From: Paeniglutamicibacter cryotolerans
Lineage (GTDB): Bacteria; Actinomycetota; Actinomycetes; Actinomycetales; Micrococcaceae
Assembly (NCBI RefSeq): GCF_014190875.1
Contig: NZ_JACHVS010000001.1
Coordinates: 310,001-374,000, forward strand
DNA: 64,000 nucleotides
Direction of reading: 5' to 3'
Shown one piece after another: positions 8,285 to 62,075 of this stretch (positions are counted from its first letter, which is position 1; each line of letters starts with the position of its first letter). Under the pieces are notes generated by a model. The model was not told where the DNA came from. It worked only from the letters and a program-made list of their open reading frames with translations, and did not search any database. The translations under genes were made by a program, and so were the position numbers.

Positions 8285-8330
8285 TACTGACCGTTCGTTC
8301 AGGATATGCGGGAAATCACGAATCCGTCAA
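8285..8330 (-). promoter_or_regulatory. paaA promoter with overlapping PaaR-type operator
   Basis: On the minus strand, TTGACG (8330-8325) and TATCCT (8306-8301) form -35 and -10 boxes with an 18-bp spacer. An imperfect palindrome at 8285-8306, core ACTGACCGTTCGTTCAGG, covers the -10 region. The same core is found before paaZ and related sites before paaI and paaJ. A repressor here would block RNA polymerase directly. Confidence 0.75.
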
Positions 8331-8400
8331 TCGACAACACGCTGTTACATGCCGGGAGTCAATGATTGACACGCTTACTAGCTAGAGACACAATCTAGTT

Positions 8401-8766
8401 ATGCAGGCAAAACAAGAACCCGTCGACTGGCCCAGCGACTGGCTGCGCGCGACGTTGGGCATGTGCGCACTCAGGGCACTGGAATCCGGACCGTCGTATG
8501 GATACGCGATCATCTCGGCGCTGGCCGGCGCCGGGTTGGGCACCATCAAGGGCGGCACGCTCTATCCCCTGCTGACCCGCTTCGAGGCAGCTGGCTGGGT
8601 AGCCACCGAATGGCGTCCGGGCGAGGGTGGCCCGGGTCGGAAATACTTTTCACTTACGGCCGACGGACGCCGGACACTTGCCGAACAACGTGAAGCCTGG
8701 CGGAATTTCACGCACACCACGACGGGTTTCCTGAACTCGCCAGAACACGCCGGACAAGGAGCATGA
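8401..8766 (+). CDS. PadR family transcriptional regulator
   Basis: A 121-residue PadR winged-helix protein: LRALESGPSYGYAIISAL, then GTLYPLLTRFEAAGWV and the wing GPGRKYFSLTADG. PadR proteins are repressors, often of an adjacent membrane protein gene. No good ribosome site precedes the ATG; the sequence TTACTAG...CTAGTT (8375-8400) directly abuts the start and may be an autoregulatory operator or indicate a leaderless mRNA. It overlaps or nearly overlaps the next gene, the usual PadR plus membrane-protein pair. Confidence 0.9.
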   Translation: MQAKQEPVDWPSDWLRATLGMCALRALESGPSYGYAIISALAGAGLGTIKGGTLYPLLTRFEAAGWVATEWRPGEGGPGRKYFSLTADGRRTLAEQREAWRNFTHTTTGFLNSPEHAGQGA

Positions 8767-8768
8767 GC

Positions 8769-9479
8769 ATGGGCACGAAGAACAACATGACCGAGCAGTG
8801 GATCGATGCGTTCATCCTCGAGCTCAGGCTGAGCGACGTCGGTGGCCGGGCCATCGGGGATGCCGTTGCCCAGGTGCGGGAGTTCCTAGCAGACAGCGGG
8901 CAGGAACCGACCGAGGCATTCGGTGAGCCGAGGGACCATGTCTCCCGGCTCGGGCTCCCAGCGGGAGACGGATCTTCGGGGATCATGTCCATCGTCATGG
9001 CCGCGGGCTTGAGCACCCTCGCACTGACCGTTTACATCCCGGCCATCGGCGCCTTCATCTCCGGGGAGCTCGTGGAATTCGCTGCAGCACAACTGGCCCT
9101 ACTGAGCATTCCAGTCCTAGCCATCGTGCTGCTGCCGCTCTACTTCACCACCTTGGTGCGGCACAGGTGGGCACTCATCTCCATCGTCGCCATCACCATC
9201 GGCAGCGCCATGACCGCCGGCTTCCTTGGACGGTCGGCAGCGGGCACCGAGTGGCTGGTGCTCGATGCCGGCCCCCTCGCCCTGGCGATGGCCGCCCTGC
9301 TGCTGATCGGTGCGGTGTGGAGCTTCGTCGAACTCCGGCGCACGCCGGCGGACCACATCGTCGAACCCCTCTCACGGCAACCCGCCTCCCGGAAGAGCCC
9401 CTGGGTCGACCTGCTGCCTTCGGTACTGTTCATTGCCGTGGCCGCCGTGGCCACCCTCGTCGTCTGGTTGGTGAACTAA
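8769..9479 (+). CDS. PadR-linked membrane protein (HAAS/DUF1700-like)
   Basis: A 236-residue protein with a soluble N-terminal region of about 65 residues (WIDAFILELRLSDVGGRAIGDAVAQV, a small helical domain with acidic and hydrophobic heptads) and about six transmembrane segments. The soluble N-terminus followed by membrane helices resembles the HAAS-domain proteins found next to PadR regulators. The ATG at 8769 sits 7 bp after AAGGAG; an ATG at 8763 overlaps the padR stop but would be only 1 bp from the same site. Function unknown; probably an envelope-stress or surface-related membrane partner controlled by the upstream PadR. Confidence 0.75.
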   Translation: MGTKNNMTEQWIDAFILELRLSDVGGRAIGDAVAQVREFLADSGQEPTEAFGEPRDHVSRLGLPAGDGSSGIMSIVMAAGLSTLALTVYIPAIGAFISGELVEFAAAQLALLSIPVLAIVLLPLYFTTLVRHRWALISIVAITIGSAMTAGFLGRSAAGTEWLVLDAGPLALAMAALLLIGAVWSFVELRRTPADHIVEPLSRQPASRKSPWVDLLPSVLFIAVAAVATLVVWLVN

Positions 9480-9738
9480 GCATCCGGGTGACCCCGGAAC
9501 CACGAGGGACCGCACCTGCTCAGGCACGGTCGCAGTCTGCTGCTGAGCCCGCGGCCGCCGTCCTGGCCGCTGTTCTGAAAAGTCCCATGTCCGTAGCACT
9601 TCCTCGGGATCCTCGGCTGTCCCGACAGCTTGGGGTGGGCGAACAGGGAGCAAATATGACGGGCACGCGGAACCCTCCTTTTGTCCGCGCTGGGCGAAGG
9701 AACCACACAGCGGGGTCCGGATCGGATTAGATGGTTCC

Positions 9739-11901: not shown

Positions 11902-11926
11902 CGCCACGGGCAGTGCCCGGATTCGA

Positions 11927-11990
11927 AAAGGGGCCCCGGCTCGGTACCGCGCCGCCAAGGGCGGCCGAAGTACCGACCCGGGGCCCCTTT
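11927..11990 (+). terminator. terminator after oligopeptidase B
   Basis: AAAGGGGCCCCGG (11927-11939) pairs with CCGGGGCCCCTTT (11978-11990), and TCGGTAC/GTACCGA extends the stem inside. It lies between convergent genes and can serve both strands. Confidence 0.85.
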
Positions 11991-12006
11991 CATGGGCCGG
12001 GGTCGT

Positions 12007-15669: not shown

Positions 15670-15741
15670 ACACAAGCCTTCGAAAAGGCAAGAATCAGGC
15701 CGTCACGGCGGCTGGATGACGCTCTTTGGCCCCGTCCCGTC

Positions 15742-15787
15742 TTGACATATTCGTGGATTCGGGATTACCTAATGAACATTCGGTAAA
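15742..15787 (+). promoter_or_regulatory. paaIKR promoter with PaaR-type operator
   Basis: TTGACA at 15742-15747 and a weak -10 (TTACCT, 15765-15770) are 17 bp apart. The 22-bp palindrome at 15765-15786 begins TTACC, has AATG and CATT inner arms, and ends GGTAA; only two symmetric positions and the central pair fail to match. It covers the -10, consistent with repression. It is the most symmetric of the four sites in the window. Confidence 0.75.
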
Positions 15788-15806: not shown

Positions 15807-16289
15807 ATGAGCGAAACCAACGTCGACGCGGCCCACGCGGGCACCGGGTCCGAAGCAACCCCGACCCCGGAAAAGGCCTTGGCCCACCCGATTCTGGCCA
15901 ACGATCCAGCCTCCGAATGGATGGGCATCGAAGTCATCCAAGTCGACGACGGCCACGCCACCATCACCATGAAGCTGCGTCCCGAAATGCTCAACGGTTT
16001 CGGCATCGCCCACGGCGGCATGCTCTTCGCCTTCGCCGACACTGCCTTCGCGCTGGCCTGCAACCCGCACACCGGCTCGGAAGACACCATCACCGTCGCC
16101 TCCGGTGTCGACATCAACTTCATGCGCCCGGGTATCCCCGGCCGCCTGCTCACCGCCGTGGCCGACCGCCGCGCCCAGACCGGGCGCAGCGGCATCTTCG
16201 ACATCCAGGTGCTGCAAACCGTTCCCGGCGCCCCGGACGAGGTCCTTGCCGAATTCCGCGGCCGTTCCCGCACCATTCCCAAGCGCTAA
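15807..16289 (+). CDS. paaI: PaaI: phenylacetate-pathway hotdog thioesterase
   Basis: A 160-residue hotdog-fold thioesterase. The PaaI/acyl-CoA thioesterase motif is HGGMLFAFADTAFALACN, followed by SGVDINFMRPG. PaaI hydrolyses dead-end CoA thioesters of the phenylacetate pathway and recovers CoA. The start at 15807 follows GAGAGG by 6 bp. The first 40 residues are a hydrophilic leader. It is first in the paaI-paaK-paaR unit and directly downstream of an operator-promoter. Confidence 0.9.
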   Translation: MSETNVDAAHAGTGSEATPTPEKALAHPILANDPASEWMGIEVIQVDDGHATITMKLRPEMLNGFGIAHGGMLFAFADTAFALACNPHTGSEDTITVASGVDINFMRPGIPGRLLTAVADRRAQTGRSGIFDIQVLQTVPGAPDEVLAEFRGRSRTIPKR

Positions 16290-16334
16290 CGACTCCTCCC
16301 CCACCACCTCCCAAACACACAGTAAGGCCCACAA

Positions 16335-17654
16335 ATGAGCGAAAACTCGTCCAACGTCGAGCTTCCGAATCCGTTGGATCCAGAAGAAACCATGAGCCGC
16401 GACCAGATCGAATCGATCCAGCTCGCGCGCCTGCAGGAAACGCTGGCCTACGCCTACGACCGAGTTCCGCTCTACAAGGAGAAGTACGATACCGCCGGTG
16501 TGCACCCGAGCGACCTGAAAGAACTCCCCGACCTGGCGAAGTTCCCCTTCACGGAGAAGGAGGACCTGCGCAAGACCTACCCGTTCGGCATGTTTGCCGT
16601 GCCGCAGCACGAGGTCGCCCGCATCCACGCTTCCTCCGGCACCACCGGCCGCGCCACCGTCGTCGGCTACACCCAGTCCGACCTGGACGACTGGGCCAAG
16701 CTCGGCGCCCGCTGCCTACGCCTCTCCGGCGTCAAGCCCGGCTGGAAGGTCCACAACGCCTACGGCTACGGCCTGTTCACTGGCGGACTCGGTGCCCACG
16801 CGGCTGCCGAGCGCCTGGGCACCACTGTCATTCCGATGTCCGGCGGCCAGACCGACAAGCAAATCACGCTGATCCAGGACTTCGCGCCCCACGCCATCCT
16901 GTGTACCCCGACCTATCTGCTGACCATCGGCGATGCCATGCAGAAGCGCGGCATCGACCCGGCGTCCACCTCCTTGAAGGTCGCCGTGCTGGGTGCCGAG
17001 CCGTGGACCGAGGAAATGCGCCACGAACTGGAAACCATGTTCCAGATCGACGCCTGCGACATCTACGGCCTGTCCGAGGTCATGGGCCCGGGAGTCGCCG
17101 GCGAATCCAACGTCACCAAGGACGGCAGCCACATCTGGGAGGACCACTTCCGCCCGGAGATCGTCGACGCGTTCGACGAGACCAAGGTACTAGGCGACGG
17201 CGAACCGGGCGAACTCGTGTTCACCTCGCTGACCAAGAAGGCCCTGCCCATCATCCGCTACCGCACGCACGACCTGACCCGGCTGCTTCCGGGTACGGCC
17301 CGGCCCGGCCACCGCCGCATGGGCAGGATCACCGGACGCAGCGATGACATGATCATCATGCGCGGCGTGAACCTGTTCCCGTCGCAGATCGAGGAAATCG
17401 CCCTGCGCGTGCCCGGCCTGTCCCCGCACTTCCGCCTCGAGATCACCCGGCCGGGCCGCATGGACCAGCTGGCGGTGCTCATCGAACGCCGCGAGGATTG
17501 CACCTCCGACCGTGCCGATGCAGCGGCCCGCGAACTGCAGCGTGAAATCAAGATCCATGTCGGTTCGTCCTGCGAGATCCGGGTCGTGGATCCGGGCTCG
17601 CTTGAGCGTTCCTCCGGCAAGCTCAAGCGCATCTACGACCTGCGCAACAAGTAA
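16335..17654 (+). CDS. paaK: PaaK: phenylacetate-CoA ligase
   Basis: A 439-residue adenylate-forming enzyme of the PaaK type. ATP-binding P-loop HASSGTTGRATVVGYT near residue 100, YGLSEVMGPG, YRTHDLTRL, and the hinge RMGRITGRSDDMIIMRGVN, then FPSQIEE of the C-terminal AMP-binding domain. It activates phenylacetate to phenylacetyl-CoA with ATP, the entry step of the pathway. It lies 45 bp after paaI and is followed by the TetR regulator, forming one unit. Confidence 0.96.
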   Translation: MSENSSNVELPNPLDPEETMSRDQIESIQLARLQETLAYAYDRVPLYKEKYDTAGVHPSDLKELPDLAKFPFTEKEDLRKTYPFGMFAVPQHEVARIHASSGTTGRATVVGYTQSDLDDWAKLGARCLRLSGVKPGWKVHNAYGYGLFTGGLGAHAAAERLGTTVIPMSGGQTDKQITLIQDFAPHAILCTPTYLLTIGDAMQKRGIDPASTSLKVAVLGAEPWTEEMRHELETMFQIDACDIYGLSEVMGPGVAGESNVTKDGSHIWEDHFRPEIVDAFDETKVLGDGEPGELVFTSLTKKALPIIRYRTHDLTRLLPGTARPGHRRMGRITGRSDDMIIMRGVNLFPSQIEEIALRVPGLSPHFRLEITRPGRMDQLAVLIERREDCTSDRADAAARELQREIKIHVGSSCEIRVVDPGSLERSSGKLKRIYDLRNK

Positions 17655-17741
17655 GGGCCAACGCCCCGCTGCTGCCCAGTGGCCCCTTCCCGCATCAGGA
17701 ACGGCCATCGGGCAGCACCGTTTGTGAAAGAATCAAGAACT

Positions 17742-18359
17742 ATGCCCACTAGCACTGCCAAGTCCCCCGCCACCAAGCGCGGACGCCCCGGTTACGACCA
17801 GGAATCCGTCTTGAGCATTGCCGTCTCCGTTTTCAACAAGCACGGATACGACGCCACCTCGATGGGGACCCTGGCCGAGAACCTGGGCATCAGCAAATCG
17901 GCGATCTACCATCACGTCCCCTCCAAGGGCGACCTGCTGCGCCTGGCCCTGGACGAGGCCCTCATCCCGCTCGAAGCCATCGTCGAAGACGAACGCGCCA
18001 CCATCGGCACCGCCGAACAACGCCTCGAGTTCTTCCTGCGCTCCACCATCCAGGTCCTGGTCAAACGCCAACAGTACGTCACGCTGCTGCTGCGCCTGCG
18101 TGGCAACACCGAGATCGAACGCGATGCACTGGACCGGCGGCGCGCCGTGGACCGCCGCGTCTCCGACCTGGTCGTCGAGGCCCAACAGGAGGGCTCGCTG
18201 CGCGCCGACATCGATCCGCGTACGGCGACCCGTCTGCTTTTCGGCACCATCAACTCCCTGGTCGAATGGTTCCGGGAGGGTGGTCCTGTTTCGGCCGAAC
18301 AGGTCGAGGAACACGCCATCACGATGATGTTCGACGGGTTGCACGGCGGCAAGCGATAG
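17742..18359 (+). CDS. paaR: PaaR: TetR family repressor of the phenylacetate regulon
   Basis: A 205-residue TetR protein. DNA-binding domain at residues 15-62 (GYDQESVLSIAVSVFNKHGYDATSM, with the recognition helix in LGISKSAIYHHVPSKGDLL), then a helical ligand domain. The basic, lysine-rich N-terminus (ATKRGRPG) is usual for this group. In actinobacteria such as Corynebacterium and Thermus-type systems a TetR PaaR represses paa genes and is released by phenylacetyl-CoA. Its position after paaK and the presence of four related palindromes before paa units in this window support the same role. The operator before paaI implies autoregulation. Confidence 0.85.
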   Translation: MPTSTAKSPATKRGRPGYDQESVLSIAVSVFNKHGYDATSMGTLAENLGISKSAIYHHVPSKGDLLRLALDEALIPLEAIVEDERATIGTAEQRLEFFLRSTIQVLVKRQQYVTLLLRLRGNTEIERDALDRRRAVDRRVSDLVVEAQQEGSLRADIDPRTATRLLFGTINSLVEWFREGGPVSAEQVEEHAITMMFDGLHGGKR

Positions 18360-33728: not shown

Positions 33729-35855
33729 CTACTTCCAGTTCTTGTAGGTCACGTCTTCCTTTTCCACCAGGGTCAGCACATCGTAGGTTGCCACGATTTC
33801 GCCGTCCTGGTTGTTGATGACAGCATCCCAGGCAACCTCTCCGTATTCGTCCGTCACGCGCGGGGTGATCTTCTTCGCCGTCAGCGTGACGCGGATCGAA
33901 TCGCCGGCAGGGACCGGGGTGATGAAGCGCAGGTTCTCCAGGCCGTAGTTGGCCAGGACCGGGCCCGGGGCCGGCTGGACGAAGAGTCCGGCGGCCCAGG
34001 AGACCAGCAGGTAGCCGTGCGCGACGATGCCCGGGAAGAACGGGTTGGCTTCCGCTGCCGCATTGTCGACGTGCGCGTAGAAGGTATCACCGGTTTCGTG
34101 GGCGAAGGCAGTGATTTCCTCCAGCGAGACCCGGCGCAGCGGCGAGGCGAAGGCATCGCCGATGTTCAGCTCGGCCAGCGACTTGCGGAACGGGTGGATC
34201 GCACCTTCCACTGCCCCGAATTCGGCAGCACCGGCGATGACGCGGTCCGCGCCGGTGTGCCAGACGCCGGTCACGGCCGTCAGCAGGTTCGGGGAACCCT
34301 GGATGGCCGTACGCTGCATGTGGTGCTTCACGGCGCGGATGCCTCCCAGCTCTTCGCCGCCGCCGGCGCGGCCCGGTCCACCGTGGACCAGGTGCGGAAC
34401 CGGGGAGCCGTGGCCCGTGGAGGAACGCGCGGTTTCGCGGTTGAGCATGTGCACGCGACCGTGGTGGGCTGCGATGCCGGTGGTCAGCACGCGGGCGGTT
34501 TCGCCGTCGTTGGTGCAGACAGTGGCCACCAGCGAGCCGGAGCCCATGGCCGCCAGTTCGATGGCCTCATCCAGGTCGGCGTAACCGATCACGGAACTGA
34601 CCGGGCCGAAGGCCTCGAGCCCGTGTACCGCCTGGTTGCGGACATCGTCCCAGGTGAGTAGCAACGGGGACATGAAGGCACCGGCGTCGACCACGGAATC
34701 CTCGCCCGAAGTGCTGCGCACCACCGGTGCATCAAGTGTGCCGTAAGCCAGCTCGCCGCCGGCGGCGATCATCTCTTCCACCGCGCCGCGCACGTCGCGC
34801 AGCTGCTCCAGGGAGGCCAGGGCTCCCATGGTGACGCCCTCGGCGCGCGGGTCGCCCACCACGATGCGCGCATCCAGGCGGGCGCCGACTGCTGCGACCA
34901 CATCCGGGACCATGCCCTGCGGCACGATGGCCCGGCGGATGGCGGTGCACTTCTGGCCGGCCTTGACCGTCATCTCGGTGACCATCGACTTGACGAAGGC
35001 GTCGAACTCGGGGGTGCCGGGGACGGCATCCGGGCCGAGGATCGCGGCGTTCAGCGAGTCGGTTTCGCAAGTGAAGCGCACGCCGCCCTCGACGACGTTC
35101 ACGTGGGCCTTCAGCGAGTTGGCCGTGGAGGCCGAACCGGTGAACGCGAGCACGTCGCGGTAGTCCAGTTCGTCCAGCAGGGTGCGGGCCGAGCCGGAGA
35201 TCAGCTGCAGCGAGCCCTCGGGCAGCAACCCGGATTCGACCATCAGGCGCACGGCCGCCTCGGCGACGTAGCCGGTCGGGGTGGCGGGCTTGGCGATGGT
35301 CGGAACGCCGGCGATGAAGGCCGGGGCGAACTTCTCCAGCATGCCCCACACCGGGAAGTTGAAGGCGTTGATCTGGGCGGCGACGCCCGGGATGCGGGTG
35401 TAGATGTGCTCGCCGGCGAACGAACCGTCCTTGGAGAGCACCTCCATCGGCCCGTCGAGGATGACGTTCGAGTTCGGCAGTTCGCGGCGTCCCTTGGAGG
35501 AGTATGTGAACAGCACGCCAATGCCGCCGTCGATGTCGACCATCGAGTCGATCTTCGTGGCACCTGTCTGGAAGGACAGCGCGTAGAGCTCCTCGCGGCG
35601 GGCGTTGAGGTACTGGGCCAGTTCCTTCAGCACCAGGGCACGCTCGTGCAGGCTCAGCTTGCCAAGCTCACGCTGGCCGACGGTGCGGCCGTAGTTGACC
35701 ATGCCGGCCAGGTCCAGTCCGTCCGAATTAACGCGGGCGAGCAGTTCGCCGGTGTTGGCATCGAGCACCTGGGTGCCTGCGGGATCGCCCGCAGGGGTCC
35801 ACCATTGCCCTTGTGCATAGCTGGGAACTAGCTGGGCCATTGGAGAAGTCGTCAT
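33729..35855 (-). CDS. paaZ: PaaZ: bifunctional oxepin-CoA hydrolase / 3-oxo-5,6-dehydrosuberyl-CoA semialdehyde dehydrogenase
   Basis: A 708-residue fusion. Residues about 1-520 are an aldehyde dehydrogenase (INAFNFPVWGMLEKFAPA; CETDSLNAAILGP with the catalytic Glu; AGQKCTAIRRA with the nucleophilic Cys). Residues about 555-700 are a MaoC-like (R)-hydratase (FASPLRRVSLEEITAFA; FFPGIVAHGYLLVSWAAGL) that opens the oxepin ring. Both halves are intact, so the protein can make 3-oxo-5,6-dehydrosuberyl-CoA without releasing the reactive aldehyde. The ATG at 35855 has AAGGA 7 bp upstream, and a PaaR-type operator overlaps the region just upstream. Confidence 0.95.
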   Translation of the reverse strand: MTTSPMAQLVPSYAQGQWWTPAGDPAGTQVLDANTGELLARVNSDGLDLAGMVNYGRTVGQRELGKLSLHERALVLKELAQYLNARREELYALSFQTGATKIDSMVDIDGGIGVLFTYSSKGRRELPNSNVILDGPMEVLSKDGSFAGEHIYTRIPGVAAQINAFNFPVWGMLEKFAPAFIAGVPTIAKPATPTGYVAEAAVRLMVESGLLPEGSLQLISGSARTLLDELDYRDVLAFTGSASTANSLKAHVNVVEGGVRFTCETDSLNAAILGPDAVPGTPEFDAFVKSMVTEMTVKAGQKCTAIRRAIVPQGMVPDVVAAVGARLDARIVVGDPRAEGVTMGALASLEQLRDVRGAVEEMIAAGGELAYGTLDAPVVRSTSGEDSVVDAGAFMSPLLLTWDDVRNQAVHGLEAFGPVSSVIGYADLDEAIELAAMGSGSLVATVCTNDGETARVLTTGIAAHHGRVHMLNRETARSSTGHGSPVPHLVHGGPGRAGGGEELGGIRAVKHHMQRTAIQGSPNLLTAVTGVWHTGADRVIAGAAEFGAVEGAIHPFRKSLAELNIGDAFASPLRRVSLEEITAFAHETGDTFYAHVDNAAAEANPFFPGIVAHGYLLVSWAAGLFVQPAPGPVLANYGLENLRFITPVPAGDSIRVTLTAKKITPRVTDEYGEVAWDAVINNQDGEIVATYDVLTLVEKEDVTYKNWK

Positions 35856-35865: not shown

Positions 35866-35887
35866 TTCCTGAACGATCGGTCAGTAT
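35866..35887. promoter_or_regulatory. PaaR-type operator between paaZ and a divergent thioesterase
   Basis: On the minus strand the core reads ACTGACCGATCGTTCAGG, one base different from the paaA operator. It lies 11 bp upstream of the paaZ start and 80 bp upstream of the divergent thioesterase start, so one site could control both. Confidence 0.75.
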
Positions 35888-35967: not shown

Positions 35968-36408
35968 ATGAGCGAGCAGCGCCCGACAGCCCCCACGCCC
36001 GAGTCGATGACCGACGGGACATGGATGATCGCCCTGGGCGAACTGGACCTCAAGATGGGCATCAAAATCGTCGAAGAATCGGTGCAAAAGGTCGTTGCCA
36101 CCATGCCGGTCGAGGGGAACCGGCAGTCCTTCGGGCTGTTGCACGGCGGCGCATCGCTGGCGGTCGGTGAGGCCGTCGGCTCCTGGGCGGCAGTCAAGCA
36201 CGCCTCCACCATGGGCAAGTCCGCCGTCGGAGTCGATGTCTCGGCCACCCACCACAAGGGCGCCCGCGAGGGGACGATCACCATCACTGCCACCCCGATC
36301 AGCCTGGGCCGGCGCATGACCAGCCACCAGGTAGTGCTTCAGAACGAGGCCGGCGAGCGCCTATGCACGATGCGGATCACCAACCTGGTCATCGACATCA
36401 GGAAGTAG
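35968..36408 (+). CDS. hotdog-fold thioesterase (PaaI/YdiI-like)
   Basis: A 146-residue hotdog thioesterase: SFGLLHGGASLAVGEAVGS (catalytic region) and VGVDVSATHHKGAREG. The pattern is nearer to YdiI/MenI-type 1,4-dihydroxy-2-naphthoyl-CoA or entH-type enzymes than to the PaaI at 15807. Divergent from paaZ with a PaaR-type operator in between, so a role in clearing phenylacetate-pathway CoA esters is plausible. Its last 16 codons are duplicated 727 bp downstream (see repeats). Confidence 0.85.
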   Translation: MSEQRPTAPTPESMTDGTWMIALGELDLKMGIKIVEESVQKVVATMPVEGNRQSFGLLHGGASLAVGEAVGSWAAVKHASTMGKSAVGVDVSATHHKGAREGTITITATPISLGRRMTSHQVVLQNEAGERLCTMRITNLVIDIRK

Positions 36409-43703: not shown

Positions 43704-45223
43704 GGGCCTGTCAAGTTGTCTGTGTAAATGAACTAGTCAGATAGTGTTTCTTGCTCTAATCCTTGAGGCCCTTTAAGGCGAAGATTCGATTCTAATCCAG
43801 GTAGGCTTCCACGCGTTCGGGATAGGTCAGGCACAGGTACTGCAGGGCCTGGTTCCAACCGGTGGTCTTGGCCCCCTCCAGGAGGCGTCCGCTGGAGGCC
43901 CGGGTGCCGGCCCGGACCTTGGCACGTTCGATGGCGCGCTTGTCCTCGATGTTGCAGATCGCCAACCACAGCAGCTTCACCGCGGCCGCGTCGTTAGGGA
44001 AGTGACCACGGTTCTTGGTGACTTTTCGAAGTTGGAAATTCAACGACTCGATGGCATTGGTCGTATAAATGACCTTCCTCAAGGCAGGGGGAAACGCGAG
44101 GAACGGGGTGAAACGCTCCCAGGCGCTCTGCCACGTCTTCACCGCCGCCGGATACCTGGTGCCCCACTCGCCGTCGCTGAACTCCTTCAGGGCCGCACCG
44201 GCGGCTTCCTCGTTCGGGGCCGTGTAGATGAGCCGCAGCTGGGCGGCGACCTTCTGCCGGTCTGCGTAGGAAACGAAACGCATCGAAGAACGGATCAGGT
44301 GCACCACGCAGGTCTGCACCGTCGCGTGGGGCCACGTCGCCTCGATGGCCTCGGGGAAACCGGTGAGCCCGTCGCAGCAGACGATCAGCACGTCCTTCAC
44401 CCCGCGGTTGGCCAGCTCGGAGCAGACCTGCGCCCAGAACTTCGCGCCCTCGGCCGCGGCGATCCAGATCCCCAGCACGTGCTTGATCCCGTCCATGTCC
44501 ACGCCCACGGCGATGTGCGCGGCCTTGTTCTTCACGTGCGCGCCGTCGCGGACCTTGATCACGATCGCATCCAGGTACATGATCGGGTAGATCGGATCCA
44601 AGGGGCGGTTCTGCCAGGCGATGACCTCGTCAAGGATCTCGTCGGTGATCTTCGAGATCGTCTCGCGCGAGAGTTCGGTGCCCAGGGTGGAGGCCAGGTG
44701 GTGTTCGATGTCCCGCACCGTCATGCCCCCGGCATAGAGGCTCACGATCATGTCCGCCAGCTGCCCGGTATGCCGGGTGCCCTTGGGAACCAGGCGCGGG
44801 ACGAAGGTCCCGGCCCGGTCCCGCGGTACTGCCAGGTCGATGTCCCCGGCGCTGGTGGACACCGTCTTGGGGTAGGAACCGTTGCGGGAGTTCGTGACCT
44901 CGCGGCCGGCGTACTCGTGCTTCTCGTAGCCCAGGTGCTCGGTCAATTCGGTCTTCAGGCCCCGTTCCAGACCGGCCCGGATCAGGTGCTGGATGAACCC
45001 GTCCTTGCCATCGAGTTCGATCTCGCCGCGGTCGATCTGGCCCATCAGCTCATCGAAGGCCCCCGAGGCCTTGAGTTCTTCCATGTTCCCGACGGCGGCC
45101 ATGCGCTCGGCCGCTGCCGAGGCGTCTACTTTCCCTGCCGGTTTTTTGCGTTCTATCACGGTCATAATTGTCCTCTGAATCAGATGGTGACTAGGTCATT
45201 TACACACTCCATCTGACAGGCTC
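43704..45223 (-). mobile_element. IS256-family insertion sequence, intact
   Basis: 1520 bp with 28-bp imperfect terminal repeats: left GGGCCTGTCAAGTTG, right read inward GAGCCTGTCAGATGG; both continue to TGTGTAAATGA. The 8-bp duplication CGGCCCTG is at 43696-43703 and 45224-45231. One transposase gene fills it on the minus strand. Ends and gene are intact, so it is probably active. Confidence 0.97.
43792..45165 (-). CDS. IS256-family transposase
   Basis: A 457-residue mutator-type (IS256) transposase. The DDE triad is visible as Asp in YLDAIVIKVRDG, Asp in VCCDGLTGFPEAI and Glu in TTNAIESLN, with the C/H signature CVVHLIRSSMRF between. The N-terminal 70 residues form a helical DNA-binding region. 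Full length with no frameshift. The ATG at 45165 lies 58 bp inside the right terminal repeat. Confidence 0.97.
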   Translation of the reverse strand: MTVIERKKPAGKVDASAAAERMAAVGNMEELKASGAFDELMGQIDRGEIELDGKDGFIQHLIRAGLERGLKTELTEHLGYEKHEYAGREVTNSRNGSYPKTVSTSAGDIDLAVPRDRAGTFVPRLVPKGTRHTGQLADMIVSLYAGGMTVRDIEHHLASTLGTELSRETISKITDEILDEVIAWQNRPLDPIYPIMYLDAIVIKVRDGAHVKNKAAHIAVGVDMDGIKHVLGIWIAAAEGAKFWAQVCSELANRGVKDVLIVCCDGLTGFPEAIEATWPHATVQTCVVHLIRSSMRFVSYADRQKVAAQLRLIYTAPNEEAAGAALKEFSDGEWGTRYPAAVKTWQSAWERFTPFLAFPPALRKVIYTTNAIESLNFQLRKVTKNRGHFPNDAAAVKLLWLAICNIEDKRAIERAKVRAGTRASSGRLLEGAKTTGWNQALQYLCLTYPERVEAYLD

Positions 45224-46795
45224 CGGCCCTGGTCGCCGGGATGATCGCCGGGGCCGACAGCATCGATGACATGAGCCTGCTACGCCATGGAGCAATGAAC
45301 AAGCTCTTCGCTGGCTGCTACGCACCCTCCACCCTCGGCTCCTACCTGCGGACCTTCACCTTCGGGCACGTACGCCAACTGCAATCCGCCGCCCGCGCCT
45401 TCTTGGGGAACCTCTCAGCGCAGGTTCCCCTGATCGGCACCCCGGCAGCCGGGGACTTCGTGTATGTCGACGTCGATGACACGATCATCGAGGTCTTCGG
45501 GCACCAGAAACAAGGCGCCGGATTCGGCTACTCCGGGGTCCGGGGACTGAACGCCCTGATCGGCATTGCCTCGAGCCCCGGGCACGCACCGGTGATCGTG
45601 GCCCAGCGCCTACGCAAGGGCTCGGCGTCCTCGGCTCGCGGGGCAGCGAGCTTCATTGCCGCGTCCCTGGCCACCAGCCGTTCACTGGGCACCCACGGGC
45701 GGTTTTTGGTACGTGCCGACTCGGCGTACTACAACCAATCCGCGGTCGCCCGGGCCCTGAAACACGGGGCTGACATGTCGGTGACAGTGCGGATGAACCC
45801 CTCCATCAAGAAGGCCATCACCGCGATCCCCGAAGAGAAGTGGGAAACCATCAAATATCCCCAGGCCATCTTCGATGAAGACAGTCGGACCTGGATCTCC
45901 AAAGCCGAGGTCGCCGAGGCGGACTACACCGCGTTCTCCTCCAAGAAAAAGACCGAAAGGATCCCCGGCCGGTTGATCGTGCGCCGCATCCCCGAGCTGA
46001 ACAAGGCCAAGATCATCTCCGGACAGCAGGAAGCCTTCAAGCTCCACCGGTACCACGGGGTATTTAGCACCGTTTCCAAGGACCTGTTGGGCACCGTGGA
46101 CATGGACAAGACCCACCGCCAACACGCCGTCATCGAGGCCGTGAACGCCGAGCTGAAGGACGGGCCCCTGGCCCATCTACCTTCCGGGAATTTCAGTGCC
46201 AACGCGGCATGGCTCCATGCCGCGACCATCGCCTACAACCTCACTCGGGCCGCCGGAATCCTCGCCGCCGGGTCCTTCACCCGGGCCAAGATGGGGACCC
46301 TGCGCAGCAAACTCATCTTGGTTCCGGCCCGGATTGCTTCCAGCGCCCGGAAAATCAAATTACATCTTCCGCAAAACTGGCCCTGGGCCGAACCTTGGGA
46401 CCGGCTCTTCACCAGCGTTCAGGGCCCTCCGCAAGCAGCCTGAACCACCGGTCCAGCCAGCCTTCACGGCGCAATCAGGAATCCACGATGGAACACCCCC
46501 GGCAGCGAGGCCGGCACGCTTCGCGTGCCACAAACGAAACCGCCCCCGAATCCGGGATTCATTCCCGGACCCGAAAGCAGATCGGTGGATCGAGGCTTAC
46601 CCGACGGAGCACTATGCACCCAGCCCTGTAGCGGTCCACCGCTGACCTGGGAGCCGACGTGTTGTCCGGTCGTTGCCGATGTTCCAGGCGACGGCCGGCC
46701 GGCTCCATGCCCTGCCCCAGGCGGGCTCCCCCGGCGCCACGAATCCACAGTATCTTTCCGGGCCCCGAAGCACCGATCGGCCCTACACTAAACCC

Positions 46796-49580: not shown

Positions 49581-50267
49581 CTACCCGCGCAGCTTGTCCT
49601 TCACGGCCTCCAGCTCGGCGGAGCTCAGCCCGTGTTCCAGCAGGAATTCCTCCACCGCCAGCGCGTCGATGAACCGGCCCAGGGCGCAGAGCCGTTCGGC
49701 GATCTGCGGGGCCAGGGCCTCCTCCTCCTGGTAGCTCTCGTAGGGGTGCCGGGTCGGGCTGATCCGGTGCCAGTGGTTGATGCCGCGCACCGAGGCCTCA
49801 TACTGCGCCGCCACCAGGTCCCGCCGCCCGGCCAGCTCCAACAGCATCGTGACGATCAGCCCGGTCCGGTCCCGCCCGGCCGAGCAATGCAGCACCACGC
49901 CGCCCTGCGCGGTTGCCAGCGCGCGGAAGACGGCGACAATACGTTCCGGGAAGAACCGGAGGTTCGCTGGGTACTGGCGCGGATGGTTCATATAGGGGGT
50001 GGCCACCGCCTCGAACCCGGCGTGCCCGCCCTCCTCGGTGGGAGCGTTCACTATCTCGATGCCGGCTAGCACCGAGGGGCCCACGGCGGGATCGGTGGGC
50101 CGGCGGACGCGCTCATCGGGGTTGCGCAGATCGATCACCGTGCCGATGCCCTGCGCATGCAGCGCCCGCCACCCGGCCTCGGTCAGCCACTCGGAACGCC
50201 CCATCCGATAGACCTGTCCCAGCACGGCCCGCGCATTGACGGCGCCCTCCCAATGAACCTCTTCCAT
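49581..50267 (-). CDS. tyrosine-type protein phosphatase (PTP/DSP-like)
   Basis: A 228-residue phosphatase with the signature loop LHCSAGRDRTGLI near residue 126: Cys nucleophile and Arg of CX5R. The upstream GTVIDLRNPDERVRRP segment matches actinobacterial PtpB-like lipid/tyrosine phosphatases. Substrate is unknown, protein phosphotyrosine or a lipid. The ATG at 50267 is weakly supported by a ribosome site. It is divergent from the GntR gene. Confidence 0.88.
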   Translation of the reverse strand: MEEVHWEGAVNARAVLGQVYRMGRSEWLTEAGWRALHAQGIGTVIDLRNPDERVRRPTDPAVGPSVLAGIEIVNAPTEEGGHAGFEAVATPYMNHPRQYPANLRFFPERIVAVFRALATAQGGVVLHCSAGRDRTGLIVTMLLELAGRRDLVAAQYEASVRGINHWHRISPTRHPYESYQEEEALAPQIAERLCALGRFIDALAVEEFLLEHGLSSAELEAVKDKLRG

Positions 50268-50374
50268 GGCACCAAGACTGCCATACCCGGGCCGGCACCA
50301 CTGCCGGGTTACGATGGCAGCAGGCGGTCCAAGCTCCACCGCCGCTTGATTCATGAACCCGGGAGGGGCCTTCC

Positions 50375-51079
50375 ATGGCTCGAACAACGCTTGGCGATTC
50401 CGTCGCGGACCAGCTATTGGAACGCATCATCGAGGGCATTTACGCGGTGGGGACGGCACTTCCGGCCGAGGCCTCGATCGGCGAGGAACTGAACGTCAGC
50501 CGACTGACGGTACGCGAGGCGATGAAGTCGCTGCGCGCCAAGAACGTGGTGGAGGCCCGAAGGGGCTCGGGAACGTTCGTGAACCCGCCGAGCATCTGGA
50601 CCTCGCTGGAGGCGGTGGTGCAGGCGATGAGCGCCGGCGGTGCCGCAGAGACATCGATCCAGCTGCTTGAGGTGCGGCGCATGATCGAGGTCGGTTCGGC
50701 CCAGCTGGCGGCCGGCCGGCGCACCGAGGCCGACCTGCTGGCCATGGCCGGGCACCTCAGCACCATGCGCGGGGCTCATGCCGGGGGCGACCTGGACGGA
50801 TTCGTCGCCGCGGACCTGGCCTTCCACGACGTGATTTTGAAGGCCACCGGCAATATCATGGTTGCCGCGCTCTATGACCCGCTGGACCGGCTGCTGGCCC
50901 GCGGCCGGCGCGAGACATCGGCTGTTGCCGACATCCAGGCACACGCCATCGCCATGCACGAGGACATCCTGACGGCGCTGGCCGCGGGAAACCCCGAGGC
51001 TTCCCGCGATGCGATGGAGGCCCACATGGTCCAGACCCGTGACGACCTGTTGCATTACGTGCTCGACGGCAACAGCTAG
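50375..51079 (+). CDS. FadR/GntR family transcriptional regulator
   Basis: A 234-residue GntR protein of the FadR subfamily. N-terminal winged HTH (ERIIEGIYAVGTALPAEAS; NVSRLTVREAMKSLRA; RRGSGTFV, about residues 5-70) and a C-terminal all-helical FCD ligand domain with metal-binding Asp/His positions (LAFHDVILKATGN). It sits 117 bp upstream of the acid-sugar operon on the same strand. A perfect-armed palindrome at 51161-51175 just before the first enzyme gene is its likely operator. Confidence 0.9.
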   Translation: MARTTLGDSVADQLLERIIEGIYAVGTALPAEASIGEELNVSRLTVREAMKSLRAKNVVEARRGSGTFVNPPSIWTSLEAVVQAMSAGGAAETSIQLLEVRRMIEVGSAQLAAGRRTEADLLAMAGHLSTMRGAHAGGDLDGFVAADLAFHDVILKATGNIMVAALYDPLDRLLARGRRETSAVADIQAHAIAMHEDILTALAAGNPEASRDAMEAHMVQTRDDLLHYVLDGNS

Positions 51080-55128: not shown

Positions 55129-55138
55129 GGGTCCGGCG

Positions 55139-58031: not shown

Positions 58032-58250
58032 ATGAGACAAATCCTGATCCTGGGTGGTACCGGGTGGCTCGGCCGCACCCTAGCCACCCACCTGATCGCC
58101 GACGGGGCGGACGTCACGGGTGTGGCCCGCGGCATCTCCGGACAGATCCCAGACGGTCACGGGCGTCGTCCCGGCGGACAGGACGACGCCCGTGACCTAC
58201 GCCCCAGTCTCGGGCTGGGACTGGAACGAGGTCATCGAACTTTCCTACGC
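58032..58250 (+). pseudogene. NAD-dependent epimerase/dehydratase remnant
   Basis: MRQILILGGTGWLGRTLATH is a clean Rossmann start of an SDR-type epimerase, and DGADVTGVARGISGQIPDG follows. Near 58155 a frameshift leads into VTGVVPADRTTPVTYAPVSG, then WDWNEVIELSYA. Match to the family ends there, about 70 residues into a protein that should have about 300. The rest is missing and the sequence enters an opposite-strand remnant. Confidence 0.75.
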
Positions 58251-58895
58251 AATGCGCGGATCGCCCGGTCCCTCAGCGTCCGGGAACGGACCCCGTTCAC
58301 GTATTCAAGTCCGTGGCCCGTGGGCGGCACGGCGAAGGAAATCATCACGTCATCCCAGCGGCTGGGATACTCGCTACGCCCGGCGCCCTCGAGCGTCTGC
58401 TGCCGAATCCGATCCTGACCCCGGCCCCGGGGCAGCCCCAGCCGCAGCCCCTTCCGCGGCAGTCCGGATAGGGCCAAGACGACGTTTCCGCTCGTGAAGT
58501 ATTGCAAGGCCCAGCAGGCCACCATCTGCGGCGTGTTCCGCTCGAGGTAAGTCGAGTCGACGGCTGACTGCCCCAGCCACACCGACCCGAAGCAAGCATC
58601 GAGCATCTCGACGAGCGACGGCGGGACGACGCCGGTGGCTTCGGCCCGCAGGACCCTGACCTCGTTCTCGATTTCCGCGTTGCCCACCCTGCCGGCGGCG
58701 ATATCCGAGATGGCCCGGCCGATCCCGGACAGCGCCGCCACCATCTGGTCGTTGTTGCCCTCCAAGGTCAGCCCGGTGTAGAAGAGCCCCACTGTGCCGT
58801 TGTGCTCGTGGTGCAGCACCGGCATCCTGGATGTAAATCAAATGCGCGATCAGGTGGGTGATGCCCACCCGAAACGTCAAGGGGGGGCCTTCAGC
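58232..58895 (-). pseudogene. M16 (insulinase-like) metallopeptidase remnant
   Basis: PPLTFRVGITHLIAHLIYIQ resembles the M16 zinc site region (family HLVEH; here HLIAH with Glu lost). A frameshift near 58825 joins it to VLHHEHNGTVGLFYTGLTLE and the fold continues to ALQYFTSGNVVLALSGLPRKG and RLGLPRG. The N-terminus is shortened, the catalytic Glu is replaced and the C-terminus is cut. It abuts the epimerase remnant tail to tail. Confidence 0.6.
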
Positions 58896-59005
58896 GGCCC
58901 CGGGCATGCGCCCAGAACGTTCCGCTGCCGTCGACGGTTGCCTGTTGTGGTTCCATGCCCCCTGAACGCGCGGAAATATCCGATTCACCGCTGGTCAAAC
59001 AGGAA

Positions 59006-59041
59006 TGCCGCATCCCTTCCGGTTCGGGAAGGGATGCGGCA
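59006..59041 (-). terminator. terminator of the paaJ-paaF-paaH operon
   Basis: A perfect 15-bp stem, TGCCGCATCCCTTCC (59006-59020) with GGAAGGGATGCGGCA (59027-59041), and a 6-nt loop, 20 bp past the paaH stop. Confidence 0.9.
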
Positions 59042-59061
59042 CCAATGCTCAAGCCGGAGGC

Positions 59062-59925
59062 TTAGGACCAGTCGTAGAAGCCCTTGCCGGTCTTGCGACC
59101 CAGCTCGCCACGCGCAACCATGTCGCGCATGATCTGTGGCGGGGCAAAGCGCTCACCCAGCGTGGATTCCAGGTACTCGGCAATGCCCAGGCGCACGTCC
59201 AACCCGACGATGTCGGTGGTCTTCAACGGGCCGGTCGGGTGCTTGTAGCCCAGGACCATCGCGTTGTCGATATCCTCGGCGCTGGCCACGCCCTCTTCGA
59301 CCATGCGCATGGCCTCAAGCGCAATGGCAACACCCAGACGAGACGAGGCGAAACCGGGGGCGTCGTTGACCACGACGGCCGTCTTGCCCAGGCCGGCCAC
59401 CCAATCGCGGGCGGTGGCGACCAGCTCGGGGGCGGTCTCCTTGGCGATGACCACCTCGATCAGCGTGGAGGCCGGAACCGGGTTGAAGAAGTGAAGACCC
59501 AGGAAGTCGGCAGGGCGTTCCAGATTCTCCGCGAGCCCGCTCATGGACAGCGAGGAGGTGTTGGAGGCCAGGATGGCACCCGGCGTCAGCGCCGCCTCGA
59601 CTGCCTTGAGCGAGGAGACCTTCAGGTCCCAGATTTCCGGAACCGCCTCGATGACCAGTTCGCGGTCGCCGAAGTCGGCGTAGTTGGTGCTGACGCTCAG
59701 CTTGGCCGAGTAGTCGGCCAGGGTTCCCTCGAGCCCGCGGGCCAGCGACTTCTCCACGGCCGATTCCACGCGTTCGCGGGCGCCCTGTGCGCTAGTCTCG
59801 TCGCGCTCGACAACAAGCACGTCGACGCCCTTGATCAGGAACGCGTGGGCGATGCCCGCGCCCATGCGGCCGCCGCCGAGCACGCCCATGCGTGCGGGAA
59901 GTGCTACCTGGTTGGTTTCGGTCAT
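59062..59925 (-). CDS. paaH: PaaH: 3-hydroxyadipyl-CoA dehydrogenase
   Basis: A 287-residue 3-hydroxyacyl-CoA dehydrogenase. Rossmann motif MGVLGGGRMGAGIAHAF, catalytic SNTSSLS, GLHFFNPVPAS (catalytic His) and NDAPGFASSRLG, ending RKTGKGFYDWS. It oxidises (3S)-hydroxyadipyl-CoA to 3-oxoadipyl-CoA in the phenylacetate pathway. On sequence alone it could be 3-hydroxybutyryl-CoA dehydrogenase; paaF and paaJ next door decide it. It starts 2 bp from the paaF stop. Confidence 0.85.
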   Translation of the reverse strand: MTETNQVALPARMGVLGGGRMGAGIAHAFLIKGVDVLVVERDETSAQGARERVESAVEKSLARGLEGTLADYSAKLSVSTNYADFGDRELVIEAVPEIWDLKVSSLKAVEAALTPGAILASNTSSLSMSGLAENLERPADFLGLHFFNPVPASTLIEVVIAKETAPELVATARDWVAGLGKTAVVVNDAPGFASSRLGVAIALEAMRMVEEGVASAEDIDNAMVLGYKHPTGPLKTTDIVGLDVRLGIAEYLESTLGERFAPPQIMRDMVARGELGRKTGKGFYDWS

Positions 59926-59927
59926 CT

Positions 59928-60725
59928 CTACTTCTTCTTCCGGTCGAGGAACTCGGCCATGCGGTCGAACTTCGCCTGCGATTCGAACAGCATGCCCTGC
60001 GCCAGGGTGTCGATCATCGGGTGCGCCTCGCGCGGGGCGTGGAACACCGCCTTGGAAATGCGCACCGCCAGCGGATCCTGGGCACCGATGCGGTCCGCCA
60101 GCGCGTGGGCGGCGGGCATCAGTTCGGCCGGCTCCACCAGTTCGGTGATGAGCCCGACGCGTAGGCAGTCGTCGCCGCGCAGGACCTTGCCGGCCAGCAG
60201 GATCTCCTTGGCGAGGGGTTCGCCGACGAGTTCCTTCAGGCGCCAGGTGGCACCGGCGGCGGCCATGATGCCGAGGTTGGTTTCCGGGTTGCCCATGCGC
60301 AGGTCGGCCGTGCCGATCCTGAAGTCGGCGGCGTAGGCCAGTTCGGCCCCGCCACCGAGCGCGTACCCGTCGAGGGCCGCGATGACCGGCATCGGCAGCT
60401 TCGCGATGCGGTTGAAGATGCCCGAGTTGATCCCGGCCAGCGCGTCGTCGCGCCGGCGCATCCGCAGCTGGGCGATGTCGGCGCCGGAGGCGAAGATGCC
60501 CTTGGCGCGGTTCTCCGGATCCCCGGGGGTCCCCGAGAGGATGAGGATCTTCGGCGTGGATTCCAGGTACGTGCAGACGGCGTGCAGTTCATCGACCATC
60601 TGCTGGTCGATGGCGTTCTTCACCTCGGGGCGGTGCAGCTGCACCGAGAGCCGGTCAGCGGACTCGGTGACCTTCAGCGTGAGGAATCCGGTGGTGTCCA
60701 GGTGTGCCAGGTTCTCGCCCGCCAT
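59928..60725 (-). CDS. paaF: PaaF: 2,3-dehydroadipyl-CoA hydratase
   Basis: A 265-residue crotonase-family hydratase. Unlike PaaG it retains both catalytic glutamates: YALGGGAELAYAADF and GNPETNLGI, with the oxyanion region FASGADIAQL. It hydrates 2,3-dehydroadipyl-CoA. The N-terminus has an extra stretch of about 20 residues (GENLAHLDTTGFLTLKV). It lies 3 bp from paaJ and 2 bp from paaH, so the three genes are one transcript. Confidence 0.85.
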   Translation of the reverse strand: MAGENLAHLDTTGFLTLKVTESADRLSVQLHRPEVKNAIDQQMVDELHAVCTYLESTPKILILSGTPGDPENRAKGIFASGADIAQLRMRRRDDALAGINSGIFNRIAKLPMPVIAALDGYALGGGAELAYAADFRIGTADLRMGNPETNLGIMAAAGATWRLKELVGEPLAKEILLAGKVLRGDDCLRVGLITELVEPAELMPAAHALADRIGAQDPLAVRISKAVFHAPREAHPMIDTLAQGMLFESQAKFDRMAEFLDRKKK

Positions 60726-60728
60726 GCC

Positions 60729-61949
60729 CTAAATGCCTTCCAGAAGCAGGGCCGAGCCCTGGCCGACGCCGACGCACATGGTGGCCAGGCCGAGCTTGCG
60801 CCCGGATCCGGCTTCACGCTCGAGCCGGCCCAGCAGGGTGATGGCGATGCGGGAGCCGGAGGAGCCCAGCGGGTGGCCCAGGGCGATGGCGCCGCCGTCG
60901 TTGTTCACGATGTCGGGGTTGATGCCCAGTTCGCGCATGGAGGCCAGCGACTGCGATGCGAAGGCCTCATTCAGTTCGACGGCCGCCAGTTCGGACACGT
61001 CGATACCGGAGCGTTCCAGGATCTTGCGGCTGGAGGGGACCGGGCCCATGCCCATGATCTCCTGGGCCAGGCCGGCGGAGGCTCCGTCGATGATGCGCGC
61101 ACGCGGGATCAGCCCGTATTTCTTGATGGCCCGTTCGGAGGCGACGATGATCGCCGAGGCGCCGTCGTTCAGGGTGGAGGCGTTGCCTGCGGTGACCACG
61201 GAACCGCCCTTGACCACGGGACGCAGCCCGGCAAGGACCTCCAGCGTGGTGCCGGCGCGCGGTCCTTCGTCGGTGTCGACGATGGTTTCGCCCTTGCGGT
61301 GCTTGACGGTCACCGGGACGATTTCATCGGCGAAGCGGCCGGCGGCGATGGCTGCCAGGGCGCGTTCGTGGGAGCGCACGGCAAACGCATCGCAGTCTTC
61401 GCGGGAGGTGCCGTAGACACGGGCGACTTCCTCGGCGGTTTCCGGCATCGAGTAGGTGGCCTTGCCGTCGCGGGAGAGCTCCCCGGAGAGGAATGCCGGG
61501 TTCGGGAAACGCCAGCCGATGGAGGTGTCATGGGTTTCCCCGGGCTTGGCGAAGGCCTTGTCCGGCTTGGCCATGACCCACGGGGCACGCGACATGGATT
61601 CCACGCCGCCGGCGACCACGATGTCCGCGGCACCGGCCTTGATCATGTGGCTGGCCATGGTGATGGCGCTCATGCCAGAGGCGCAGAGGCGGTTCACGGT
61701 GATACCCGGGACGGTGTCCGGGAAACCGGCCAGCAGCCAGGCCATGCGGGCCACGTTGCGGTTTTCCTCGCCGGCGCCGTTGGCGTTGCCGAAGATGACT
61801 TCTTCCACCAACGACGGGTCGATGCCTGCGCGTTCCACGGCGGCCTTGATGGCCAGTGCCGCCAAGTCATCGGGACGCACCGAACTCAGTGCCCCTCCGT
61901 AGCGTCCTACCGGGGTGCGGGCCCCGCCTACGAGGAAAGCCTCGGTCAT
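60729..61949 (-). CDS. paaJ: PaaJ: 3-oxoadipyl-CoA/3-oxo-5,6-dehydrosuberyl-CoA thiolase
   Basis: A 406-residue thiolase. Nucleophilic Cys in TVNRLCASGMSAI near residue 91, His in GHPLGSSGSR and second Cys in MCVGVGQGSA. Consistent with PaaJ/PcaF thiolases, which cleave both 3-oxo-5,6-dehydrosuberyl-CoA and 3-oxoadipyl-CoA in this pathway. First gene of the paaJFH unit; a PaaR-type palindrome lies 105 bp upstream. Confidence 0.88.
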   Translation of the reverse strand: MTEAFLVGGARTPVGRYGGALSSVRPDDLAALAIKAAVERAGIDPSLVEEVIFGNANGAGEENRNVARMAWLLAGFPDTVPGITVNRLCASGMSAITMASHMIKAGAADIVVAGGVESMSRAPWVMAKPDKAFAKPGETHDTSIGWRFPNPAFLSGELSRDGKATYSMPETAEEVARVYGTSREDCDAFAVRSHERALAAIAAGRFADEIVPVTVKHRKGETIVDTDEGPRAGTTLEVLAGLRPVVKGGSVVTAGNASTLNDGASAIIVASERAIKKYGLIPRARIIDGASAGLAQEIMGMGPVPSSRKILERSGIDVSELAAVELNEAFASQSLASMRELGINPDIVNNDGGAIALGHPLGSSGSRIAITLLGRLEREAGSGRKLGLATMCVGVGQGSALLLEGI

Positions 61950-62053
61950 AACAACTCCTCAATCATCGGTGCAGCGGATGTGGCCGGCGGGTTGCTGCCA
62001 CGGCAGGCGGTCTTTGCGCCGCGCCGTCCCTCGGGCGCGGCACAGCCACGCAT

Positions 62054-62075
62054 TTACCGACCAATCGTTCACTTA
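62054..62075. promoter_or_regulatory. PaaR-type operator upstream of paaJ
   Basis: TTACCGACCAATCGTTCAC begins at 62054. It aligns with the paaA and paaZ sites (TTACTGACC ... TCGTTCA) and shares TTACC with the paaI site. TATAAG on the minus strand (62077-62072) could be a -10 box, but no -35 sits at the right distance. It is the weakest of the four as a palindrome. Confidence 0.6.

Follow-up and report, generated by a model that had tools for sequence, protein, structure and literature searches.

The 64,000-nucleotide stretch of the Paeniglutamicibacter cryotolerans genome analysed here (the window; G+C content 65.6%) carries genes of phenylacetate (paa) catabolism that are split over four putative transcription units, headed by paaA, paaI, paaZ and paaJ. 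The paaI unit also holds paaK, for the phenylacetate-CoA ligase, and ends in a gene for a TetR-family protein. Each unit has one upstream site, and all four sites carry one motif, an 18-bp palindrome of the form ACYGAMCG-NN-CGKTCRGT with a 2-bp spacer. Its features suggest that the four sites are, very probably, operators of a PaaR-type TetR repressor encoded by the last gene of paaI-paaK-tetR, with repression that would be lifted by phenylacetyl-coenzyme A (phenylacetyl-CoA).

An 18-bp palindrome before each paa unit

An earlier note on this DNA had described imperfect 22-bp palindromes at these four places, with a right arm that varies. Palindromic, related sites do lie there, three of them at the coordinates given and the first shifted by one position, its centred 22-mer spanning 8284-8305 instead of 8285-8306. 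The symmetric unit spans 18 bp rather than 22, a 2-bp spacer included, and the variation in the right arm, although present, is therefore ordinary degeneracy. The paaA and paaZ cores do differ by a single base, as the note had said. Within the 18-mer, symmetric pairs number six of nine at paaA, seven of nine at both paaI and paaZ, and five of nine at paaJ, which is therefore recognised through its similarity to the other sites and not through symmetry.

We scored each site with a symmetrised matrix built from the other three window sites, against a background of 400 kb (20 stretches) of the same genome. The held-out scores of the paaA (21.9), paaZ (23.4) and paaJ (17.1) sites had no equals in this sample and none elsewhere in the window. 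Across the whole 4.14-Mb genome, the pattern WWACYGAMCRNNCRKTMRGK with at most one mismatch occurred at the four paa sites and at two other places, which scored 3.5 and 14.4 on a refined matrix, compared with 20.0-34.1 for the four paa sites. A test of whether the WWACYGAMCRNNCRKTMRGK places lie in open frames flagged the four true sites too and did not discriminate. With a first pattern, TACYGAMCRWTCGTTCAGG, at up to three mismatches, the paaA, paaZ and paaJ sites were the top three among seven places (control, nine).

The sites lie on or near predicted promoter elements. The earlier note's statement that two of them overlap a likely -10 box holds for paaA and paaI, and is backed by a -35 TTGAC at fixed distance: 26-27 bp ahead of the 18-mer in 26 of 28 paaA promoters and 25-26 bp ahead in 24 of 26 paaI promoters, where shuffled sequences lead to an expectation of at most 0.15 per offset. 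At paaJ, TTGAC lies 30-34 bp ahead of the site in 21 of 29 promoters, a spacing that puts the site directly behind a candidate -10. No paaZ promoter was identified, TTGAC being found within 60 bp before the site in only one of 30 promoters; the paaZ operator lies 12 bp ahead of the paaZ start codon. A promoter-calling tool reported promoters only at paaA and at the divergent PadR gene, and thus none at paaI. These predicted positions suit a repressor that blocks initiation.

Conservation of the sites and co-occurrence with the TetR gene

Conservation was analysed in 59 genomes, comprising P. cryotolerans and its relatives. With leave-one-class-out matrices derived from three window sites, a site was found in 28 of 28 paaA, 30 of 30 paaZ, 26 of 26 paaI and 29 of 30 paaJ promoters scored, the paaI set consisting only of loci whose alignment starts within the first 24 residues. 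A wider scan, with a matrix that includes the relatives' sites and is not independent of them, found a site in 30 of 30 paaA promoters and in 77 of 77 paaI promoters (in both cases all loci with a match to the gene; for paaI these are 77 of 80), with no hit in 535 shuffles for the two together. Outside the genus, the mean pairwise identity of the 18-mer was 0.93 at paaA, 0.81 at paaZ and 0.77 at paaJ, compared with 0.29-0.39 in the flanks (0.30-0.35 for the paaA site). The paaI 18-mer reached 0.91 over 26 loci, five of which (L008-L012) belong to the same genus, again with flanks at 0.29-0.39. From 43 distinct site sequences in 113 promoters we derived the consensus TT-ACYGAMCG-NN-CGKTCRGT. 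Matrices containing relatives' sites also underlie this consensus, the identity comparison and the scans of distant loci and permease promoters described below; the held-out tests are the leave-one-class-out scan and the three-site scoring within the genome. This conservation in orthologous promoters confirms all four sites, that of paaI included.

The TetR protein matches Pfam TetR_N (46.7 bits, cut-off 24) and TetR_C_24 (80.7 bits, cut-off 26.4), and its closest named relatives come from Paeniglutamicibacter (86-89% identical) and Arthrobacter sp. C2 (88%). PaaA is present in 44 of the 59 genomes; a TetR orthologue scoring at least 140 bits accompanies it in 43 of these and occurs in none of the 15 genomes without paaA. 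Its gene lies directly 3' of paaK in 72 of 80 loci, and by context the window gene is a PaaR orthologue. The motif tracks the gene: allowing one mismatch, the pattern occurred at 347 places in the 43 genomes that carry the TetR gene (reversed control, 78) and at 23 places in the 16 genomes without it (reversed control, 15). An alternative is that another regulator, such as the PadR-like protein encoded divergently from paaA (8401-8766), controls paaA and that the palindromes are PadR sites; this gene does adjoin the paaA operator and has a good promoter of its own at 8366-8394. A PadR relative is found in only four of 30 paaA loci (the window's own included), compared with the site in 30 of 30; the motif agrees with operators of TetR-type PaaR proteins, and its distribution over genomes parallels that of the TetR gene. 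We consider control by another regulator such as PadR very improbable.

Control by the TetR protein also draws on more distant genomes. In a class-wide search, 42 of 148 genomes gave a TetR match with an E value no higher than 1e-20. A distant set, chosen rather than random, combined 20 stretches around such matches with 20 more, mostly from the order and family. In these 40 loci the TetR orthologues are 43-57% identical, 37 stretches contain clear paa genes, and 34 have a site (score at least 17) no farther than 450 bp from the start of a paa gene or of tetR; the 400-kb background contained none at 14 or above. In six distant loci (L339, L349, L352, L358, L364 and L367) a site stands before tetR itself, which ties the motif to the repressor gene and not to the pathway alone; in L349 and L352 the stretch has no paa gene, and in L358 and L364 the tetR site is common to a divergent paa gene. 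Over residues 47-57, the presumed recognition helix, 101 near orthologues share 98% identity with the window protein and 35 distant ones 71%; over residues 68-205 the values are 65% and 45%, respectively. These data make a dispersed regulon under one TetR repressor, as the earlier note had proposed, the best reading of the sequences, on the strength of a shared and conserved motif, the co-occurrence with the TetR gene and the six distant sites before tetR.

We also considered a two-register model, with arms either 2 bp apart or overlapping by 2 bp, which in a scan of 163 upstream regions would account for 54 and 16, respectively, of the 70 best sites. The model was dropped: owing to the internal repeat of the half-site (ACYG-AMCG), those 16 sites with their flanks, judged by eye, can also be read more or less well as the 18-mer that has a 2-bp spacer.

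Several results weigh against the proposed regulon. Unlike the paaA, paaZ and paaJ sites, the paaI site has a held-out score (9.6) with 21 equals in the 400-kb sample and three in the window, and it is thus non-significant from its own genome alone. Degenerate versions of the pattern are not enriched in the genome: at up to three mismatches there were 220 places per strand compared with 252 in the reversed control, and at up to two, 16 + 16 places compared with 20 + 17. For this reason matrices, the 400-kb background sample and conservation were used instead. The paaJ promoter of one locus (L198) lacks a site; one genome with paaA (G051, a draft in 450 contigs) has no clear TetR orthologue; in six of the 40 distant loci no paa or tetR gene has a site of at least 17 next to it; and the site scan accepts only 70 of the 163 distant upstream regions. 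The abundance of loose palindromes and the non-significance of the paaI site would fit chance look-alikes. Against chance stand the held-out scores of the paaA, paaZ and paaJ sites, unmatched in 400 kb, and the conservation in orthologous promoters, barring wrong orthologue assignments. Chance look-alikes are accordingly an exceedingly improbable account of the four sites.

Table 1. Phenylacetate units, genes and predicted control elements in the window
Feature	Position	Strand or direction	Evidence or content
paaA unit	3561-8252	leftward	paaA, paaC-like, paaE-like and enoyl-CoA hydratase genes
paaI-paaK-tetR unit	15807-18359	rightward	
paaZ unit	33729-35855	leftward	divergent from thioesterase gene
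paaJ unit	59062-61949	leftward	paaJ, hydratase and dehydrogenase genes
paaA, first gene of the monooxygenase unit	7263-8252	-	PF05138, 298 bits
paaC-like, second PaaA_PaaC-type subunit	6115-7098	-	PF05138, 291 bits
paaE-like oxidoreductase	4417-5733	-	Fer2, NAD_binding_1, FAD_binding_6
Enoyl-CoA hydratase/isomerase after paaE-like gene	3561-4448	-	PF00378, 166 bits
paaI, hotdog thioesterase	15807-16289	+	TIGR02286, 117.7 bits (cut-off 118.9)
paaK, phenylacetate-CoA ligase (product is the expected inducer)	16335-17654	+	TIGR02155, 625 bits (cut-off 646.3)
TetR-family repressor gene, 205 aa	17742-18359	+	TetR_N, TetR_C_24
paaZ, bifunctional aldehyde dehydrogenase/hydratase	33729-35855	-	TIGR02278, 1014 bits (cut-off 562.8)
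4HBT thioesterase divergent from paaZ	35968-36408	+	PF03061
paaJ, 3-oxoadipyl-CoA thiolase	60729-61949	-	TIGR02430, 518.9 bits (cut-off 597)
Enoyl-CoA hydratase after paaJ	59928-60725	-	PF00378 (pair with dehydrogenase: PF00378, PF02737, PF00725)
3-hydroxyacyl-CoA dehydrogenase after paaJ	59062-59925	-	pair with hydratase: PF00378, PF02737, PF00725
Predicted PaaR-type operator ACTGACCGTTCGTTCAGG before paaA	8286-8303	+	held-out matrix, promoter conservation
Predicted variant PaaR-type operator ACCGAATGTTCATTAGGT before paaI-paaK-tetR	15767-15784	-	promoter conservation
Predicted PaaR-type operator ACTGACCGATCGTTCAGG between paaZ and thioesterase	35868-35885	-	held-out matrix, promoter conservation
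Predicted PaaR-type operator ACCGACCAATCGTTCACT before paaJ	62056-62073	+	held-out matrix, promoter conservation
Predicted paaA core promoter	8301-8330	-	-35 TTGACG 8325-8330, 18 bp, -10 TATCCT 8301-8306; -10 overlaps operator
Predicted paaI core promoter	15742-15770	+	-35 TTGACA 15742-15747, 17 bp, -10 TTACCT 15765-15770; -10 overlaps operator

The paaI and tetR genes were scanned from upstream in-frame starts at 15726 and 17679, respectively. The PaaI and PaaK scores fall slightly under their NCBI equivalog cut-offs and that of PaaJ clearly under the PcaF cut-off; PaaZ scores above its own.

The predicted PaaR circuit and known systems

We infer that the TetR protein binds these sites and represses the paa units. 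A repressor dimer would bind the 18-bp palindrome, covering the -10 box at paaA and paaI, lying directly behind the candidate -10 at paaJ and sitting near the start codon at paaZ, and RNA polymerase would thereby be blocked from starting or proceeding. When phenylacetate enters the cell, PaaK would convert it to phenylacetyl-CoA, which would release the repressor so that all paa units open together, the repressor's own unit included. Autoregulation is suggested, at the level of sequence, by the site at the paaI-paaK-tetR promoter and by the sites before tetR in the six distant loci. In 23 of 30 loci paaZ has the thioesterase gene as its divergent neighbour, and co-control of the two from the paaZ operator is possible.

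The proposed signal bears on a further alternative, in which the TetR protein binds the sites and senses a different ligand, for example a later CoA intermediate. The ligand is not readable from sequence, and a TetR relative, MbdR (52.7 bits), responds to 3-methylbenzoyl-CoA according to the portion of PMC4424350 consulted here. The excerpted text of PMC9493321, however, has PaaR of both Thermus and Burkholderia released by phenylacetyl-CoA, its pathway compound II, and the stretch YVTLLLRxRGNTExERxAL is a consensus of near and distant orthologues alike. A different ligand therefore seems unlikely, and phenylacetyl-CoA is kept as the predicted effector.

In 72 of 77 loci the operator of the paaI-paaK-tetR unit retains a special arm, ATTAGGT (ACCTAAT when read from the opposite strand), which overlaps the -10 box. 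This arm is possibly a compromise with the -10 sequence, or it may weaken the operator of a unit whose products include the inducer-making ligase and the repressor, or both, as the two readings are compatible. Distant loci also suggest how the units may have come to be dispersed. In L371 two operators separate paaA from paaI, its immediate and divergent neighbour, and in L339, L367 and L368 the divergent pair shares one operator; in the window paaA and paaI are still divergent, their operators lie about 7.5 kb apart and other genes stand between. These layouts suggest that the paaA and paaI units drifted apart, each keeping an operator.

Both the PaaR mechanism and PaaR regulons are already known, and the window adds another instance. 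Like the predicted repressor of the window, Corynebacterium glutamicum PaaR is a TetR repressor from an actinobacterium that controls paa genes through palindromic operators. PaaR regulons were reportedly reconstructed in 57 species by Chen et al. 2012, and their motif is reported to be ACTNACCGNNCGNNCGGTNAGT, at 22 bp 4 bp longer than the window 18-mer. RegPrecise 3.0 cites that work for PaaR comparative genomics, in the section of PMC3840689 consulted. The available portion of PMC9493321 describes TetR-family PaaR repressors in Thermus, Burkholderia and Corynebacterium, with phenylacetyl-CoA as effector, and gives the operators CNAACGNNCGTTNG for Thermus and ACCGACCGGTCGGTT for Burkholderia. 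PaaR of Thermus thermophilus HB8 (TTHA0973) resembles the window protein as a TetR repressor of paa genes encoded together with them (excerpts of PMC9493321 and PMC6651687), and its operator CNAACGNNCGTTNG, compared by eye, agrees with the window's YGAMCG-NN-CGKTCR in half-site and 2-bp spacer, whereas the Thermus site selected in vitro, AACnAACGTTnGTT, differs in being 14 bp long with abutting arms. Burkholderia cenocepacia PaaR is likewise a TetR repressor, acting at three separate paa promoters and released by phenylacetyl-CoA (PMC9493321, in the same excerpt); its operator ACCGACCGGTCGGTT, 15 bp without a 2-bp spacer, differs from the window 18-mer. A putative Streptomyces pristinaespiralis site reads AACGA-N4-TCGGT in the part of PMC10933834 consulted, and a 2026 survey (PMC13186573, in extract) has PaaR predominating in actinobacterial groups that include Arthrobacter. 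Among the papers listed in our literature search, none dealt with Micrococcaceae PaaR operators or with a permease of the major facilitator superfamily (MFS) under PaaR control; earlier mention of either is possible. For Micrococcaceae (Arthrobacter and its kin), the motif supplies an operator code from which PaaR regulons can be predicted genome by genome.

The best solved relative of the window protein is PDB 2IAI (SCO3833, 176.6 bits), entered as a 'putative transcriptional regulator'. The entry name gives no function, and the name was not found in the literature searched. 2IAI is close to the TetR protein of distant locus L355 (9977-10552; 324.6 bits), whose gene lies about 8 kb from paaA, so that SCO3833 is probably a PaaR; a likely function is thereby suggested for a solved structure.

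An MFS permease promoter and neighbouring features

The regulon appears to extend beyond the paa units. Among the matches listed for the one-mismatch pattern in the relatives, we picked eight extra places by hand: six lie before orthologous MFS transporters (mutual identity 58-73%), one before an enoyl-CoA hydratase gene and one before an alpha/beta hydrolase gene. At E = 1e-100 a permease orthologue was found in 36 of the 59 genomes; 35 are at least 63% identical, and all 35 fall within the 43 TetR-bearing genomes, of which eight lack such a permease. The 36th genome (G038) has no TetR gene and its permease relative is only 54% identical. A site scoring at least 12 was present in 30 of 30 permease promoters fetched (loci L379-L381, L383-L385 and L387-L416), and in 15 of the 30 it scored at least 17; five orthologues, 63-66% identical, from G025-G028 and G035, were left out of the promoter set. 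Six of the 30 had led us to the permease; the other 24 are independent, and the site was found in 24 of 24. At the same threshold of 12, shuffles gave one hit in 600 and the 400-kb background one place.

In P. cryotolerans itself the permease gene (446 codons, C1:2788055-2789395) has its site, TTTCCGTCCGAACGGTCGGT, at C1:2787974-2787993, 61 bp before the ATG; the paa cluster is 2.4 Mb away on the contig. With a score of 13.6, in a shifted register, this site is weaker than the other 29. The permease gene is probably under the same repressor, and its related site means that the four window sites, which do mark all four paa units as the earlier note had said, do not define the whole regulon. With a site in all 30 orthologous promoters, the permease is probably a phenylacetate importer, its substrate being deduced from its regulation only; a candidate importer is thus named for Micrococcaceae. 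We tentatively consider a graded feedback, an arrangement that we rate somewhat short of probable: strong operators would act on the catabolic units, the conserved, weakened ATTAGGT operator, fused with the -10 box, on the unit that makes both the inducer (through PaaK) and the repressor, and a separate conserved operator on the remote permease, which would be a dedicated phenylacetate importer of Micrococcaceae.

The sites before the enoyl-CoA hydratase gene (L382:2041, genome G056) and the alpha/beta hydrolase gene (L386:1904, genome G045) are of PaaR type and mark possible further regulon members. A CTCACA stretch follows the -35 TTGAC upstream of paaI in L008, L066 and L083 and upstream of paaJ in L202; we take it to be reminiscent of a CRP/GlxR half-site, and it is absent from the corresponding place in the window's own paaI promoter. 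Beside paaA, the sigma-70-type promoter of the PadR-like gene ends directly before its ATG, and an overlapping gene follows (8763-9479), membrane-protein-like and with no Pfam match. A GntR-FCD regulator gene (50375-51079) was considered as the source of the regulator and rejected; its neighbours are sugar-acid-type genes. Two transposase genes (Mutator family and DDE group 1) lie at 43792-46443, between paaZ and paaJ. A tyrosine-phosphatase-like gene (49581-50387) and an adjacent GNAT acetyltransferase gene, both in the same orientation, stand beside the GntR/GntP sugar-acid-type cluster.

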